Under the pieces are notes generated by a model. It had not been told where the DNA came from. It did no database searches and worked only from the letters and a program-made list of their open reading frames with translations. Of a stretch of DNA of 34,463 bases, positions 9,623-28,702 are shown one piece after another. Each line of letters opens with the position of its first letter. Position 1 is the stretch's first letter. The position numbers and the translations under genes are program-made. Source of the stretch: Tannerella sp. (lineage in GTDB: Bacteria; Bacteroidota; Bacteroidia; Bacteroidales; Tannerellaceae); NCBI GenBank assembly GCA_031276175.1, contig JAISNP010000089.1, positions 1 through 34,463 on the forward strand. The letters run 5' to 3'.

Positions 9623-9641
9623 GCGCGAACGTCCGGGAACG

Positions 9642-9825
9642 GACAGTCTCATTCGCGAATATTTGACAGTCTGATTCGAGGGGAACGGACAGTCTGATTC
9701 GAAGGGAACGGACAGTCTGATTCGAGGGGAACGGACTGTCTGATTCGAGGGGAACGGACTGTCTGATTCGAAGGGAACGGACTGTCTGATTCGAGGGGAA
9801 CGGACTGTCTGATTCGAAGGGAACG
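9642..9825. repeat. Tandem array A: eight units, exact 23-bp period
   Basis: The core GACAGTC or GACTGTC starts at 9642, 9665, 9688, 9711, 9734, 9757, 9780 and 9803, always 23 bp apart. Most units continue with TGATTCGA and AGGGGAACG-like sequence. The first four units carry GACAGTC and the last four carry GACTGTC, its exact reverse complement, so the two halves of the array can pair. A 23-bp period rules out a coding repeat. It fills the space between two converging operons. Confidence 0.95.
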
Positions 9826-9862
9826 AACGAATCGCTCCGAGGGGAACGATTCGTTCGCTTTG
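9824..9862 (+). terminator. Hairpin terminator of the susC-susD-DUF3823 operon
   Basis: CGAACGAATCG (9824-9834) and CGATTCGTTCG (9847-9857) form a perfect 11-bp stem with a 12-base loop, followed on the plus strand by CTTTGTTTG. The T-tract is interrupted, so efficiency is uncertain. Because the stem is symmetric it may also act on the converging minus-strand operon, which ends at 9892. Confidence 0.6.
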
Positions 9863-17501: not shown

Positions 17502-17733
17502 TTTGCGAAGCAAGCGTTTCGATTTACGAAGCAGTTCTTTTATTTTTTGAAGAAAACATTCCGGTTTAAGAAGGAACATTCTTATTTTAAGAAGTAAACA
17601 TTTCAGTTTAAGAAGAAGATTTCTCAGTTTAAGAAGAAGATTCCCCCGGTTTAAGAAGAAGATTTTCCGGTTTAAGAAGAAGATTTCCCGGTTTAGGAAA
17701 GAGTTTCCTCGCTTTAAGAGGCAAAGATTTCGA
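17502..17733 (+). repeat. Tandem array B: about eleven degenerate units, 21-bp period
   Basis: Units begin with TTTAAGAAG or a variant at 17502, 17523, 17546, 17565, 17586, 17607, 17628, 17650, 17671, 17692 and 17713. Most spacings are 21 bp; one is 22, and the early part shows 23 and 19. The core is purine-rich (AAGAAGAAG) and is followed by a pyrimidine-rich TTTC/TTCC and CGG. The middle units are the most alike and the edges decay. The array lies between the promoter at 17400 and the start of the 232-residue protein, so it would be transcribed as leader RNA. Confidence 0.9.
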
Positions 17734-21446: not shown

Positions 21447-22163
21447 TTATGCGAAGATTTCCCGCAACTCTGCGAAGTCGGAAATGACGGTATCGGCTGT
21501 TTCGTGGCCGTCGTAATCGTTCCATCCCTTTTTTTTCAGCCATACGGTACGGCATCCGGCAATCGTTGCGGGGAGAATATCTTTGTCGAACGAATCGCCG
21601 ACGACGGCTGTTTCGTCTGCGGGCAAGTGCAACGCTTCGATGCCGAGCCGGAATATTTGCGGGTCGGGCTTGCGGACGCCGACGAGGGCCGATTCGATCA
21701 CCGTCGGGAAATAAACCGTGAGCCGGAAGTCGTCGAGCACGGTTTTCAGGTTGCCGTAGAAATTGGATACCATCACAAGTCGATATTTTTCCGCTAATGC
21801 GGCAATTACCGGTCGCGCGGCGTCGACCGAACGCGCGGCATATTCGTAGCATCGGTCTGCCACGGCGCGGATTGTTTCGTCCGTCGTCGTTTTTTGCTTG
21901 CAAAAGAACCCGATTTCTTTCAGCCGGTCGAACTGGATGCGGATTTTCAGACGGATCATGTCGGAAAACGTATGGTTAGGACGGATCACGGGATTTCTTC
22001 CCAGCGTCCGTTCGCCGTATACATAGGCGTCTCTGAAAACGGATGCGTCGGGGAAGGTGATGTTTTCCGCTTCGTATGCCGTGCGGATGACTTCGGCCCA
22101 GTGTACGCCGTTGCTGTCAATCGTTCCGCCGTAGTCGAACAGGATGCCGCGTATATTTTTCAT
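21447..22163 (-). CDS. HAD-superfamily phosphatase
   Basis: The 238-residue enzyme has all four HAD motifs: motif I 'LFDYGGTID' (nucleophile Asp10), motif II 'LVMVSNF', motif III Lys in 'VGVRKPDPQIF' and motif IV 'VVGDSFDKDI'. A helical cap lies between I and II. The usual second Asp of motif I (DxD) is Gly here (DYG). That occurs in some HAD members and may mean slower or specialised phosphate transfer. The start codon overlaps the stop of the upstream phosphatidyltransferase gene (ATGA, 4 bases), so translation is coupled. In this context it may remove a phosphate from a lipid head group or its precursor. The substrate is an inference. Confidence 0.88.
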   Translation of the reverse strand: MKNIRGILFDYGGTIDSNGVHWAEVIRTAYEAENITFPDASVFRDAYVYGERTLGRNPVIRPNHTFSDMIRLKIRIQFDRLKEIGFFCKQKTTTDETIRAVADRCYEYAARSVDAARPVIAALAEKYRLVMVSNFYGNLKTVLDDFRLTVYFPTVIESALVGVRKPDPQIFRLGIEALHLPADETAVVGDSFDKDILPATIAGCRTVWLKKKGWNDYDGHETADTVISDFAELREIFA

Positions 22164-23080
22164 TCCTGTTCTTCGGACAGCAGGCCGACGAACGACTTGC
22201 AGAAACGTTCGTGCGTAATCACCATGTATGCCAGTAAAATATTGAGCACGGTCAACTCAAAAACAAAATACAGCCACGGCATGTCGACGAGCAGGGAAAT
22301 AAACAGCACGGCGGCGCGGGTATTGAACGAAAGGATGTTGGTAAACTTCATCAGGGGGAGGCTTTTTACGCGGAATGCGCGGCAAAACCATTCGGGAATG
22401 GCGCCCGCAGGATATTTTTGCGCCAATACTTTGCGCAGTCGCAAAAACTGTTTTGCCCATGCTTCCTGCCCTTTTGTATAATTGTAGTAAAGATAATTCG
22501 ACAGTTTGGACATGAATCCGTCCGTCCATTTCTTCCGGTTGTAATCTGCCAGCAGCGTTTGCGTGTCGGTCAGTTCGCTGCCCGATTTGCCTTTGAGGAA
22601 AAACAGATGTGCGTTGCGATAGTAATCTGCCATGGCCGCCTGTTTTCCGTGGAAGAATCCGGTTACGGCGCCGAGCAGCCATATCCACATTCCCCATTGC
22701 GGCATCAGGCGGAAACAGATCGCCGCATAGATGCAAAAGAACCACACTTCGCCGCAGAAGCCGTCCAACATGCGTCCGAGCGGCGACGTCTGACCGGTGA
22801 TGCGCGCCAGTTGCCCGTCGGCGCTGTCGTAGGAGTTTGCCCAGACAAGTAAAATCATTCCTGTGACTGTTACCCACAAATCGGTAAAATAGAAGCACAC
22901 GCCTGCCGCCGCGCCGATCAGCATCGACGCCACAGTGACGGTATTGGGATGCACGCCCCACTTGCTGAAAAGCAAAGCCAACCGATACCCTATCGGACGA
23001 TAGAAACAGATGTCGATAAATTCTTCCGTATCCGACGACTTGAGCGTAGCCTCAATGTCCTCACGCGTATGCTTTTTCAT
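22160..23080 (-). CDS. CDP-alcohol phosphatidyltransferase family protein
   Basis: This is a 306-residue integral membrane enzyme with several hydrophobic spans (for example 'VTVASMLIGAAAGVCFYF' and 'VTGMILLVWANSY'). The signature D-x2-DG-x2-AR-x8-G-x3-D appears as 'DSADGQLARITGQTSPLGRMLD' (Asp85, Asp88, Asp106). However, the final Asp of the canonical motif (position 110) is Gly, with Glu at 111. The N-terminal 'SSDTEEFIDICFYRPIGYRLALLFSKWGVHPNTVT' leads into the first span. Family members move a phosphatidyl-type group from a CDP-linked donor to an alcohol, using metal ions held by the Asp residues. A cytoplasmic insert around 'GKSGSELTDTQTLLADYNRKKW' is unusual for a minimal family member. 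The gene overlaps the ATP-grasp gene by 20 bases and the HAD gene by 4. Confidence 0.88.
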   Translation of the reverse strand: MKKHTREDIEATLKSSDTEEFIDICFYRPIGYRLALLFSKWGVHPNTVTVASMLIGAAAGVCFYFTDLWVTVTGMILLVWANSYDSADGQLARITGQTSPLGRMLDGFCGEVWFFCIYAAICFRLMPQWGMWIWLLGAVTGFFHGKQAAMADYYRNAHLFFLKGKSGSELTDTQTLLADYNRKKWTDGFMSKLSNYLYYNYTKGQEAWAKQFLRLRKVLAQKYPAGAIPEWFCRAFRVKSLPLMKFTNILSFNTRAAVLFISLLVDMPWLYFVFELTVLNILLAYMVITHERFCKSFVGLLSEEQE

Positions 23081-23942
23081 TGACTTCGATTAAATGATGA
23101 ATACATTCGGCTATGTACGGTGCGGCCTCGTCGCGGCAAGGGGCGAAGCTCGGCCAGTCGTTGAAATCAATTATCCGTATGGAGCCGTCTTCGGCCACGA
23201 TGCAGTCGCCGCCGTATATTTTTATGTTCAGGATGTTTGCCGCGTCGGTACATAACTTGCGGAGGTACTCTTCGTCGAAGGGGATGCCTTTCGCCCGGCC
23301 GTTAATCTTTTCCAGTCCGAATTTGCTGTGTTTCCCGGAAATGTTCGTCGGATAAAACCGGTAAAAGAAGTCGGCTCCGACCACGCCGTAGAATTTCACA
23401 AGGTCTCCGGCCAGATGTTCGTTTATCACTGCCGTTTCAATTCCCCGGATGGCATATTCTTTCAGGATGCTTTCGGTTTCTTCGCGGCGTCGGACGTAGG
23501 TAACATCTTCGAGGTGAATGGCGTGAAAATCTCCCCGTTTGATCCAGCAATCGTCGAAACCCGCTTCGTCGAGCAGGGGCACGGGGTTGCAGTCGGTTTT
23601 GACGATGATGCTGTCCGGGTGCGGAATTCCGTGGGACATGAGCAGGCGCGTCATCCGTTCGCGTGTACAGTTTTCGATGCCGTAGCCGGAATTGATCACC
23701 ATGTGTCCTTCGTCTTCCAGACGTTTCAACTTGCGTACCGAACTGACGTCGCGCACCATATTGAATATGACTTCTTCGTTACATGCCGCCGTCAACAAGT
23801 CGGTTTCGACATATTCGTTCACGATATATCCCATTTTGCGCAGACAGTTAACCGTCAACGAAAATATTGCTGCGTCGTTTCCGATATGATTAGGCGAAAA
23901 CCGGTTTCCTCTGCGAATCCCCGCAATTGTTCCTTTCCTCAT
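23061..23942 (-). CDS. ATP-grasp fold ligase-like protein
   Basis: The 293-residue soluble protein has an N-terminal pre-ATP-grasp part ('RRGNRFSPNHIGNDAAIFSLTVNCLRKMGYIVNEYVE'). ATP-grasp features follow: 'CWIKRGDFHAIHLEDVTYV' (Lys for ATP), 'INEHLAGDLVKFYGVVGADFFYRFYP', and the metal-binding strand 'IRIIDFNDWPSFAPCRDEAA' near residues 255-275. This resembles the RimK/carbamoyl-phosphate-type fold, which joins a carboxylate, through an acyl phosphate, to an amine or other nucleophile. I cannot name the substrate. It is the first gene of a tightly overlapping operon with a CDP-alcohol transferase and a HAD phosphatase, so it probably prepares or modifies a lipid head group. Confidence 0.8.
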   Translation of the reverse strand: MRKGTIAGIRRGNRFSPNHIGNDAAIFSLTVNCLRKMGYIVNEYVETDLLTAACNEEVIFNMVRDVSSVRKLKRLEDEGHMVINSGYGIENCTRERMTRLLMSHGIPHPDSIIVKTDCNPVPLLDEAGFDDCWIKRGDFHAIHLEDVTYVRRREETESILKEYAIRGIETAVINEHLAGDLVKFYGVVGADFFYRFYPTNISGKHSKFGLEKINGRAKGIPFDEEYLRKLCTDAANILNIKIYGGDCIVAEDGSIRIIDFNDWPSFAPCRDEAAPYIAECIHHLIEVNEKAYA

Positions 23943-23969: not shown

Positions 23970-23977
23970 CAAAGATA
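23970..23977 (-). promoter_or_regulatory. -7 box (TATCTTTG) of the ATP-grasp/CDP-alcohol transferase/HAD operon
   Basis: The minus strand reads TATCTTTG, a full TAnnTTTG match, 28 bases before the ATG at 23942. The transcript would start near 23963 with a ~20-base leader. The -33 element is not clear. Confidence 0.55.
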
Positions 23978-24030
23978 ATAAACAAATGAACAATAAAGCA
24001 TAAAGGAATGATAAATTCATACAAAAATAA

Positions 24031-28481: not shown

Positions 28482-28492
28482 GAACAAAACGG

Positions 28493-28702
28493 GCGCACGT
28501 TTATGCCGAACGTGCGCACGTTTGCACCATTCGTGCGCACGTTTACACCAAACGTGCGCACATTTACGCCAAACGTGCGCACGTTTATGCCATTCGTGCG
28601 CACGTTTACGCCGAACGTGCGCACGTTTACGCCATTCGTGCGCACGTTTACGCCAAACGTGCGCACGTTTGCGTCATTCGTGCGCACGTTTGCAACAACA
28701 TA
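28493..28702. repeat. Tandem array C: ten palindromic units, exact 21-bp period
   Basis: GCGCACG starts at 28493, 28514, 28535, 28556, 28577, 28598, 28619, 28640, 28661 and 28682. Nine of the units hold the perfect palindrome CGTGCGCACG. Where the unit is preceded by AA, the palindrome extends to AACGTGCGCACGTT. The 3-base variable position before the palindrome switches among GAA, ATT and AAA. The array starts 11 bases after the T-run of the preceding terminator and ends about 340 bp before the first peptidase gene. Confidence 0.95.

Follow-up and report, generated by a model that had tools for sequence, protein, structure and literature searches.

What do three tightly packed genes of a Tannerella sp. 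genome make? The window, that is, the whole stretch of DNA analysed here, is contig C30 of that genome (JAISNP010000089.1, 34463 bases; genome G000, 2.79 Mb, 90.8% complete). On its minus strand it carries genes for an ATP-grasp protein, a CDP-alcohol phosphotransferase (CDPT) and a HAD-superfamily hydrolase, which are arranged as follows.

23061..23942, minus strand: ATP-grasp gene, 293 amino acids, ATG start, reading frame open; proposed inositol or inositol-monophosphate kinase
22160..23080, minus strand: CDPT gene (PF01066), 306 amino acids, ATG start, open; proposed to place the phospho-inositol of CDP-inositol on a lipid acceptor
21447..22163, minus strand: HAD-superfamily hydrolase gene, 238 amino acids, ATG start, open; D-Y-G-G-T replaces DxDxT
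23061..23080, minus strand: overlap of 20 bases between the ATP-grasp and CDPT genes
22160..22163, minus strand: overlap of 4 bases between the CDPT and HAD genes

The original prediction, whose coordinates and overlaps were confirmed, had seen in these genes a candidate uncharacterised lipid head-group pathway, with the inositol-lipid clusters of gut Bacteroidota as merely a partial parallel. Gene context supports a head-group pathway, and the parallel proved to be the answer. In relatives the operon also carries a nucleotidyltransferase (NTase) and an inositol-phosphate synthase (MIPS) and matches the alternative inositol-lipid cluster of Heaver 2022 (PMC9246714), so that inositol is the probable head group. 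We consider it very likely that the operon represents the ATP-grasp/CDPT/HAD part of this Bacteroidota cluster. The word "uncharacterised" still applies to the biochemistry as far as we found, but the cluster itself had been predicted in print before. The most interesting part of this conserved head-group operon is the overlooked and unannotated ATP-grasp protein.

Conservation of the Gene Set and Relation to Known Clusters

Whether the three families are rarely adjacent elsewhere was examined in 80 named loci carrying the ATP-grasp gene, which are the best 80 of at least 583 relatives (594 pattern matches) and not a random sample. Among the matches listed, the closest named relatives by ATP-grasp were Parabacteroides and metagenome-assembled genomes (MAGs) of Tannerella sp. 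The ATP-grasp, CDPT and HAD genes lay adjacent, in this order and on one strand, in 70 of the 80 loci, and therefore their adjacency is not due to chance. CDPT was present in 77 loci, the NTase was found in the flank of 72 and directly upstream in 71, and MIPS lay inside the fetched flank in 42. Four of the ten exceptions (L064, L067, L115, L123) reach a contig end within or just after CDPT, three (L074, L080, L081) possess CDPT with HAD not recognised, and three (L105, L110, L122) have neither CDPT nor HAD beside the ATP-grasp gene.

Separately, 395 genomes of the phylum were sampled, among them that of the window; 15 contain the ATP-grasp protein (E 1e-3) and 17 the NTase (E 1e-30). All 15 ATP-grasp genomes also carry the NTase, as well as CDPT at E 1e-88 or better; the CDPT family including paralogues is wider (45/395 at E 1e-20). 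NTase without ATP-grasp occurs in two genomes (G307, G401), whose NTase matches are the weakest of the 17 and which have no MIPS. In a genome of the same order (L157) the genes follow one another as MIPS, NTase, ATP-grasp, CDPT, LPG_synthase_TM and HAD, the MIPS being confirmed by Pfam (PF07994, 364 bits; PF01658, 116 bits).

The alternative cluster described in Heaver 2022 (PMC9246714) was proposed for B. vulgatus and Prevotella, and the main text lists NTase, CDPT and HAD as its members. According to the passages covered, the NTase is modelled to form CDP-inositol, CDPT to form phosphoinositol diacylglycerol (PI-DAG) and HAD to form PI-dihydroceramide, the enzymes being unconfirmed, while phosphoinositol dihydroceramide was detected in B. 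vulgatus and P. veroralis, both of which are without the BT_1522/23/25 genes (Heaver 2022, PMC9246714). NTase, CDPT and HAD likewise stand together in our relatives, usually beside MIPS, and CDPT and HAD are adjacent in the window. The L157 order NTase, ATP-grasp, CDPT, LPG_synthase_TM, HAD agrees with the B. vulgatus genes RS13095, 13105 and 13115 which, judged from the tag numbers, leave one tag between each pair. Other shared neighbours named by the same source, a lysylphosphatidylglycerol synthase and a carboxypeptidase-regulatory-like protein, fit the LPG_synthase_TM and DUF5686/CarbopepD_reg proteins seen here. In contrast to that cluster, the window genome and the genus genomes searched lack MIPS, the NTase of the window genome is unlinked, and the ATP-grasp gene is a constant member.

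The BT_1522-1526 cluster of B. thetaiotaomicron also equips glycerolipid and sphingolipid with inositol head groups but runs via a phosphatidylinositol phosphate (PIP) intermediate (Heaver 2022, PMC9246714), and the window CDPT fails the BT1523 model. The main text of Heaver 2022 gave no match for "ATP-grasp" or "ligase", and among open-licence PMC full texts no report was found that places this ATP-grasp protein in an inositol-lipid cluster. The most constant partner of this predicted pathway is absent from the model in the main text.

Absence of MIPS and the Detached NTase

The original prediction had remarked that no inositol-phosphate synthase was visible in the window, and this holds for the whole window genome and for all 25 genomes of the genus searched (completeness 55-99%). 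To see how far the absence extends, 50 of the named loci were chosen, 38 without MIPS in the flank and 12 with it; L105 and L049 were left out, so that 48 genomes were examined (37 and 11; mostly MAGs). The remaining 30 named loci were scored from the flank alone. MIPS was lacking in 22 of the 48 and was found in 11 out of 11 positive controls. Assembly gaps are therefore an unlikely explanation, given 0 of 25 genus genomes at the completeness stated and the complete recovery in the controls. The genus and named sets overlap in part (L044/G015, L048/G017, L051/G003, L063/G023, L066/G011, L071/G004). Among those without MIPS are the isolates P. distasonis NM39_I3, P. faecalis, P. chinchillae, Parabacteroides sp. 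ZJ-118 and Massilibacteroides vaginae. MIPS was present in 13 of the 14 other ATP-grasp genomes of the phylum sample, the remaining one being G230 (7.2 Mb, 100% complete), in which NTase, ATP-grasp and CDPT are present and MIPS is absent. The absence of MIPS in this lineage and in many relatives, while the other cluster genes persist, is new.

The window genome does possess an NTase, though on a contig other than that of the operon (G000:C45:7249-7953), with start and stop codon and 56% identical to the NTase of L157. Since the NTase is unlinked, the window operon, which has no MIPS either, is a variant of the cluster and not a plain member. The detached gene lies head to head with a gene for a DUF5686/CarbopepD_reg protein (L160:4534-7953, G000:C45), and a homologous protein is encoded on the NTase side of operons that kept their NTase, in L041 and L050 at about 2 kb and in L051 directly. 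Because this neighbour is common to both arrangements, the NTase presumably stayed in place while the other three genes separated from it. Among the 25 genus genomes, NTase and operon were both present in 17 and both missing in 8 (p ~9e-7 if the genomes were independent, which they are not); this count leaves out weak matches above E 1e-9, namely G006 (E 4e-4) and second matches in G019 and G021.

Could the operon in genomes without MIPS be a decaying remnant? The missing MIPS, the detached NTase of the window genome and one TGA inside the matched stretch of two genus NTases (G024, G007) could be read in this way. Yet all three window genes are open, NTase and operon are kept or lost jointly in 25 of 25 genus genomes searched, and the ratio of nonsynonymous to synonymous substitutions (dN/dS) in pairs without MIPS was 0.02-0.22 where computable, two pairs being saturated and giving no ratio. 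A pair with MIPS gave similar values (0.11-0.23), and purifying selection is shown in the pairs tested. Decay is disfavoured by the ratios of the MIPS-less pairs, and we regard it as very improbable.

A further explanation is that in genera without MIPS the same enzymes build a non-inositol head group from another cyclitol or a sugar phosphate. This concerns the head group only, and the alternatives weighed here are not all mutually exclusive. The uniform absence of MIPS from the 25 genus genomes searched and from the five isolates named above would agree with it, as would the resemblance of the NTase to sugar NTases. Against it stands the tree of ATP-grasp and CDPT (82 rows, 80 scored), in which rows with and without MIPS are interleaved, with at least 8 changes of the MIPS state. 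The tree is of the quick type, has flagged long branches, omits rows that had no long CDPT match and leaves two rows stateless; as some MIPS-less rows may be assembly gaps, the 8 changes are not a firm count of losses. In addition, P. distasonis (L054) and Parabacteroides sp. PF5-9 (L061) have flanking families in common and differ in MIPS, which is absent in the former and present at the operon head in the latter. A non-inositol head group appears unlikely, though it deserves to be kept in mind, and that inositol is the head group in the MIPS-less genomes as well is rather probable.

The ATP-Grasp Protein as a Possible Inositol Kinase

If MIPS can be absent, where does the inositol phosphate come from? 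An answer would be provided by the ATP-grasp protein if it were a kinase of inositol or inositol monophosphate acting ahead of the NTase, a step which would explain why MIPS can be lost. We favour this reading tentatively and put it slightly short of an even chance. Family models offered little guidance. The window protein matched no Pfam family at E 1, and no family was matched by more than 5 of 64 members at that threshold, the best ATP-grasp-type matches having E 0.06-0.15. Weak NCBIfam matches were obtained to MptN (34.7 bits, cut-off 350), the RimK family (29.9, cut-off 143.4) and LysX (21.7, cut-off 275.6); the cut-offs of the RimK/LysX-type amino-acid ligase models were thus not reached.

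When a profile of the family was compared with the PDB, the first match was an inositol trisphosphate 5/6-kinase (ITPK; 1z2n, E 6.6e-4 and 3.6e-4). The metal motif D-x-N has its D in 131 of 131 locus copies (match >200 residues; some genomes are represented twice). ITPK 1z2n shows DVN at this position, whereas the ligase chains of ArgX and PsnB show E-x-N; to our knowledge, D-x-N is general among inositol kinases and E-x-N among ligases. The motif is also carried by PPIP5K. The proposed enzyme would share with the ITPK/PPIP5K kinases the general ATP-grasp fold, a weak sequence match and D-x-N (seen for ITPK 1z2n); the eukaryotic representatives act mostly on polyphosphates. ITPKs have been reported in archaea, too (review PMC8024741). 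With the C-terminal 126 residues as query, phmmer gave no significant match; of the 9 chains listed, only those of ITPK1 (E 1.6) were of the ATP-grasp type.

Structure prediction, which had been recommended for the ATP-grasp and transferase pair, gave a confident ATP-grasp fold for the ATP-grasp protein (AlphaFold2, mean pLDDT 89, pTM 0.87) but did not separate kinase from ligase. In the fold comparison ligases and inositol kinases lie within ~1.6 Z, both classes being too close for it to serve as judge, and structural alignments with ITPK/PPIP5K reach an identity of 17% or less. Within this narrow range ligases rank slightly first, and Foldseek with the model listed mostly ligases.

These results bear on the alternative that the ATP-grasp protein is a carboxylate ligase which adds an amino acid to the head group or to an amino-cyclitol, while the remaining genes make an inositol or cyclitol lipid. 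The fold ranking, which prefers RimK, LysX and Ddl ligases, and the weak NCBIfam matches to RimK-type ligases argue for it. Some distant clusters could moreover supply the amine: in a distant group of the phylum (L144-L147, L150-L153; families verified in L144 and L150 only) the cluster gains a class-III aminotransferase and a dehydrogenase, and 4 of these 8 loci have a tandem pair of ATP-grasp genes. The dehydrogenase of L150 is related to levoglucosan and inositol dehydrogenases, scoring 78 bits (cut-off 650) with the former and 69 bits (cut-off 355) with the inositol 2-dehydrogenase model TIGR04380. If aminotransferase and dehydrogenase act on free cyclitols, a kinase would be needed downstream of them. 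These clusters possibly produce an amino-cyclitol lipid with its own transporter. The L144 cluster also holds an MlaE/MlaD-type lipid transporter and its ABC ATPase.

A ligase is, on the other side, difficult to reconcile with the invariant D at D-x-N compared to the two aligned ligase chains, and with an inositol-phosphate kinase as best sequence match in the PDB. It is also at odds with the arrangement in G434, in which the pathway is split: NTase and ATP-grasp overlap by 4 bases, and CDPT, HAD and MIPS are located >1 Mb away. Because they are paired there apart from the other three genes, the ATP-grasp protein appears to be tied to the NTase step rather than to the transferase. We therefore regard the ligase as an unlikely explanation, although one that carries some weight. 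The aminoacylated or otherwise acylated head group of the original prediction found no positive support, the metal motif being D-x-N, even though the fold comparison places ligases slightly first.

With the ATP-grasp protein as inositol kinase, the pathway would follow the logic of the Kennedy pathway, in which choline/ethanolamine kinase, cytidylyltransferase and phosphotransferase act. Inositol taken up from outside would be phosphorylated by the ATP-grasp enzyme, the NTase would convert the inositol phosphate to CDP-inositol (as modelled in Heaver 2022), CDPT would move phospho-inositol to diacylglycerol or dihydroceramide, and the HAD protein might, at a guess, trim or recycle a phosphorylated intermediate. 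The order of ATP-grasp inositol kinase, NTase and CDPT would hence be Kennedy-type, with transfer of the alcohol from its CDP form to the lipid, and the CDPT profile matches cholinephosphotransferase 1. Among 39 chains, the NTase profile matched CTP:inositol-1-P and CTP:phosphocholine cytidylyltransferases. The proposed route would differ from the Kennedy pathway in that the kinase has an ATP-grasp fold and the alcohol is a cyclitol. A head group specific for sphingolipids was considered as well and has no positive evidence. The proposal is built on which genes are present, on their order and co-occurrence, on the repeated absence of MIPS and on the purifying selection observed, from which we infer every chemical step. 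Taken as a whole, cluster identity plus a kinase role ahead of the NTase and setting aside the source of inositol, it is again a little less than evenly balanced.

If the ATP-grasp protein is indeed a kinase, the pathway does not depend on inositol synthesis, and this predicts that gut bacteria such as P. distasonis scavenge dietary or host inositol. It is conceivable, though we hold this extension with more reserve, that the protein founds an unannotated bacterial family of inositol kinases which completes a Kennedy-type pathway across Bacteroidota and lets lineages such as P. distasonis and the genus of the window drop inositol synthesis and form inositol lipids with environmental or host inositol. 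In open-licence PMC texts no report of inositol lipids in P. distasonis or Tannerella was found, and "inositol" did not occur in PMC3037954 as far as that text was covered.

CDPT and HAD Proteins

A second check named by the original prediction was whether the transferase groups tightly with a characterised clade. CDPT passes Pfam PF01066 (39.7 bits, cut-off 22) but stays far below the cut-offs of PgsA TIGR00560 (18.3 bits, cut-off 109.1), PssA TIGR00473 (21.8, cut-off 107) and the BT1523-type PIP synthase NF052561 (18.1, cut-off 350), and membership of the PgsA, PssA or BT1523 groups is thus rejected; the cut-off of a PIP-synthase model was likewise missed by far. Among structures, its profile matched archaeal AF2299 first (E 4.6e-10) and cholinephosphotransferase 1 (CPT1; 8ero) second (E 8.8e-5). 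The signature of CDP-alcohol transferases includes an 8-residue spacer. It is given as DX2DGX2AR..GX3DX3D in the passages covered of Heaver 2022 (PMC9246714). In the family studied here its fourth Asp is replaced by Gly in 101 and by Ser in 2 of 103 copies (match >250 residues, paralogues included; some genomes are represented more than once); AF2299 and CPT1 both have Asp at this position. By sequence, CDPT is a divergent subfamily of the CDP-alcohol phosphatidyltransferase superfamily. NTase and CDP-alcohol transferase also occur together in the archaeal and Thermotoga-type CDP-inositol route (IPCT/DIPPS), and the profile matches include 4mnd and 2xme; we know of no ATP-grasp or HAD protein of this kind in that route.

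HAD phosphatases have a DxDxT nucleophile and acid/base motif. The HAD protein passes Pfam PF00702 (56.7 bits, cut-off 26.4) but has Gly in place of the second Asp of this motif: all 91 copies (match >150 residues; some genomes twice) show D-[YF]-G. Its sequence identifies it as a member of the superfamily, though not as an ordinary phosphatase. As both proteins depart from their family signatures, transfer and trimming may deviate from the textbook reactions. That the HAD protein serves solely to dephosphorylate the product of MIPS is disfavoured, the gene being retained without MIPS.

This departure matters for another assignment, in which the ATP-grasp protein acts further downstream, its substrate being CDP-inositol or the finished lipid, or produces a doubly phosphorylated inositol, and the HAD protein removes the phosphate again. 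Such a kinase/phosphatase pair, possibly making bacterial phosphoinositides, would be in agreement with the ITPK-like sequence match, with the many invariant basic residues in the ATP-grasp family and with the joint occurrence of ATP-grasp and HAD in 70 of 80 named loci and in MIPS-less genomes. However, the usual second Asp of the HAD motif is missing throughout, HAD was not recognised in L074, L080 and L081, and the literature passages covered mention no such lipid. We judge this assignment to be unlikely, slightly more so than a ligase, and retain the kinase ahead of the NTase as the preferred reading.

Paralogous CDPT copies were encountered at other sites. The window genome has one (L034:10173-13178, G000:C107) that is 37-43% identical to the window CDPT, and such a paralogue was matched in 24 of 25 genus genomes, in one of them partly. 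Its neighbours encode a protein resembling glycerol-3-phosphate cytidylyltransferase (99 bits, cut-off 165), a short-chain dehydrogenase/reductase (SDR) and an acyltransferase, and include no ATP-grasp gene. Because Tannerella forsythia and P. distasonis make phosphoglycerol dihydroceramide, as stated in the part of PMC3037954 covered, this set is a candidate phosphoglycerol-dihydroceramide synthase. In G391 (L197:6169-7164) a second CDPT copy is located beside genes which, by eye, resemble a fatty-acid or polyketide-type cluster.

Immediate Surroundings of the Operon

Upstream of the ATP-grasp gene the following element was noted.

23970..23977, minus strand: Bacteroidota-type -7 box TATCTTTG, putative operon promoter, by consensus match alone

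The box had been named as the one promoter -7 box of the three genes. It was identified with TAnnTTTG, which we take to be the -7 consensus, and the motif is indeed present; a second match lies at 24022 and there are 16 occurrences in the window on both strands, so that its status as the operon promoter is plausible at most. On the plus strand the operon is adjoined by a phospholipase A1 gene (PF02253, 135 bits). The same neighbour was observed in 1 of the 80 named loci (L045) and in 1 of 16 other operons of the genus (G024), and a functional tie to the operon was rejected as the neighbourhood is not conserved.

The window also contains three tandem-repeat arrays (9635-9848, 17540-17719 and 28487-28691) with units of ~21-23 bases, the middle one being readable with a unit of 42-43 bases as well. 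One of the arrays consists of 9.8 copies of AAACGTGCGCACGTTTACGCC.

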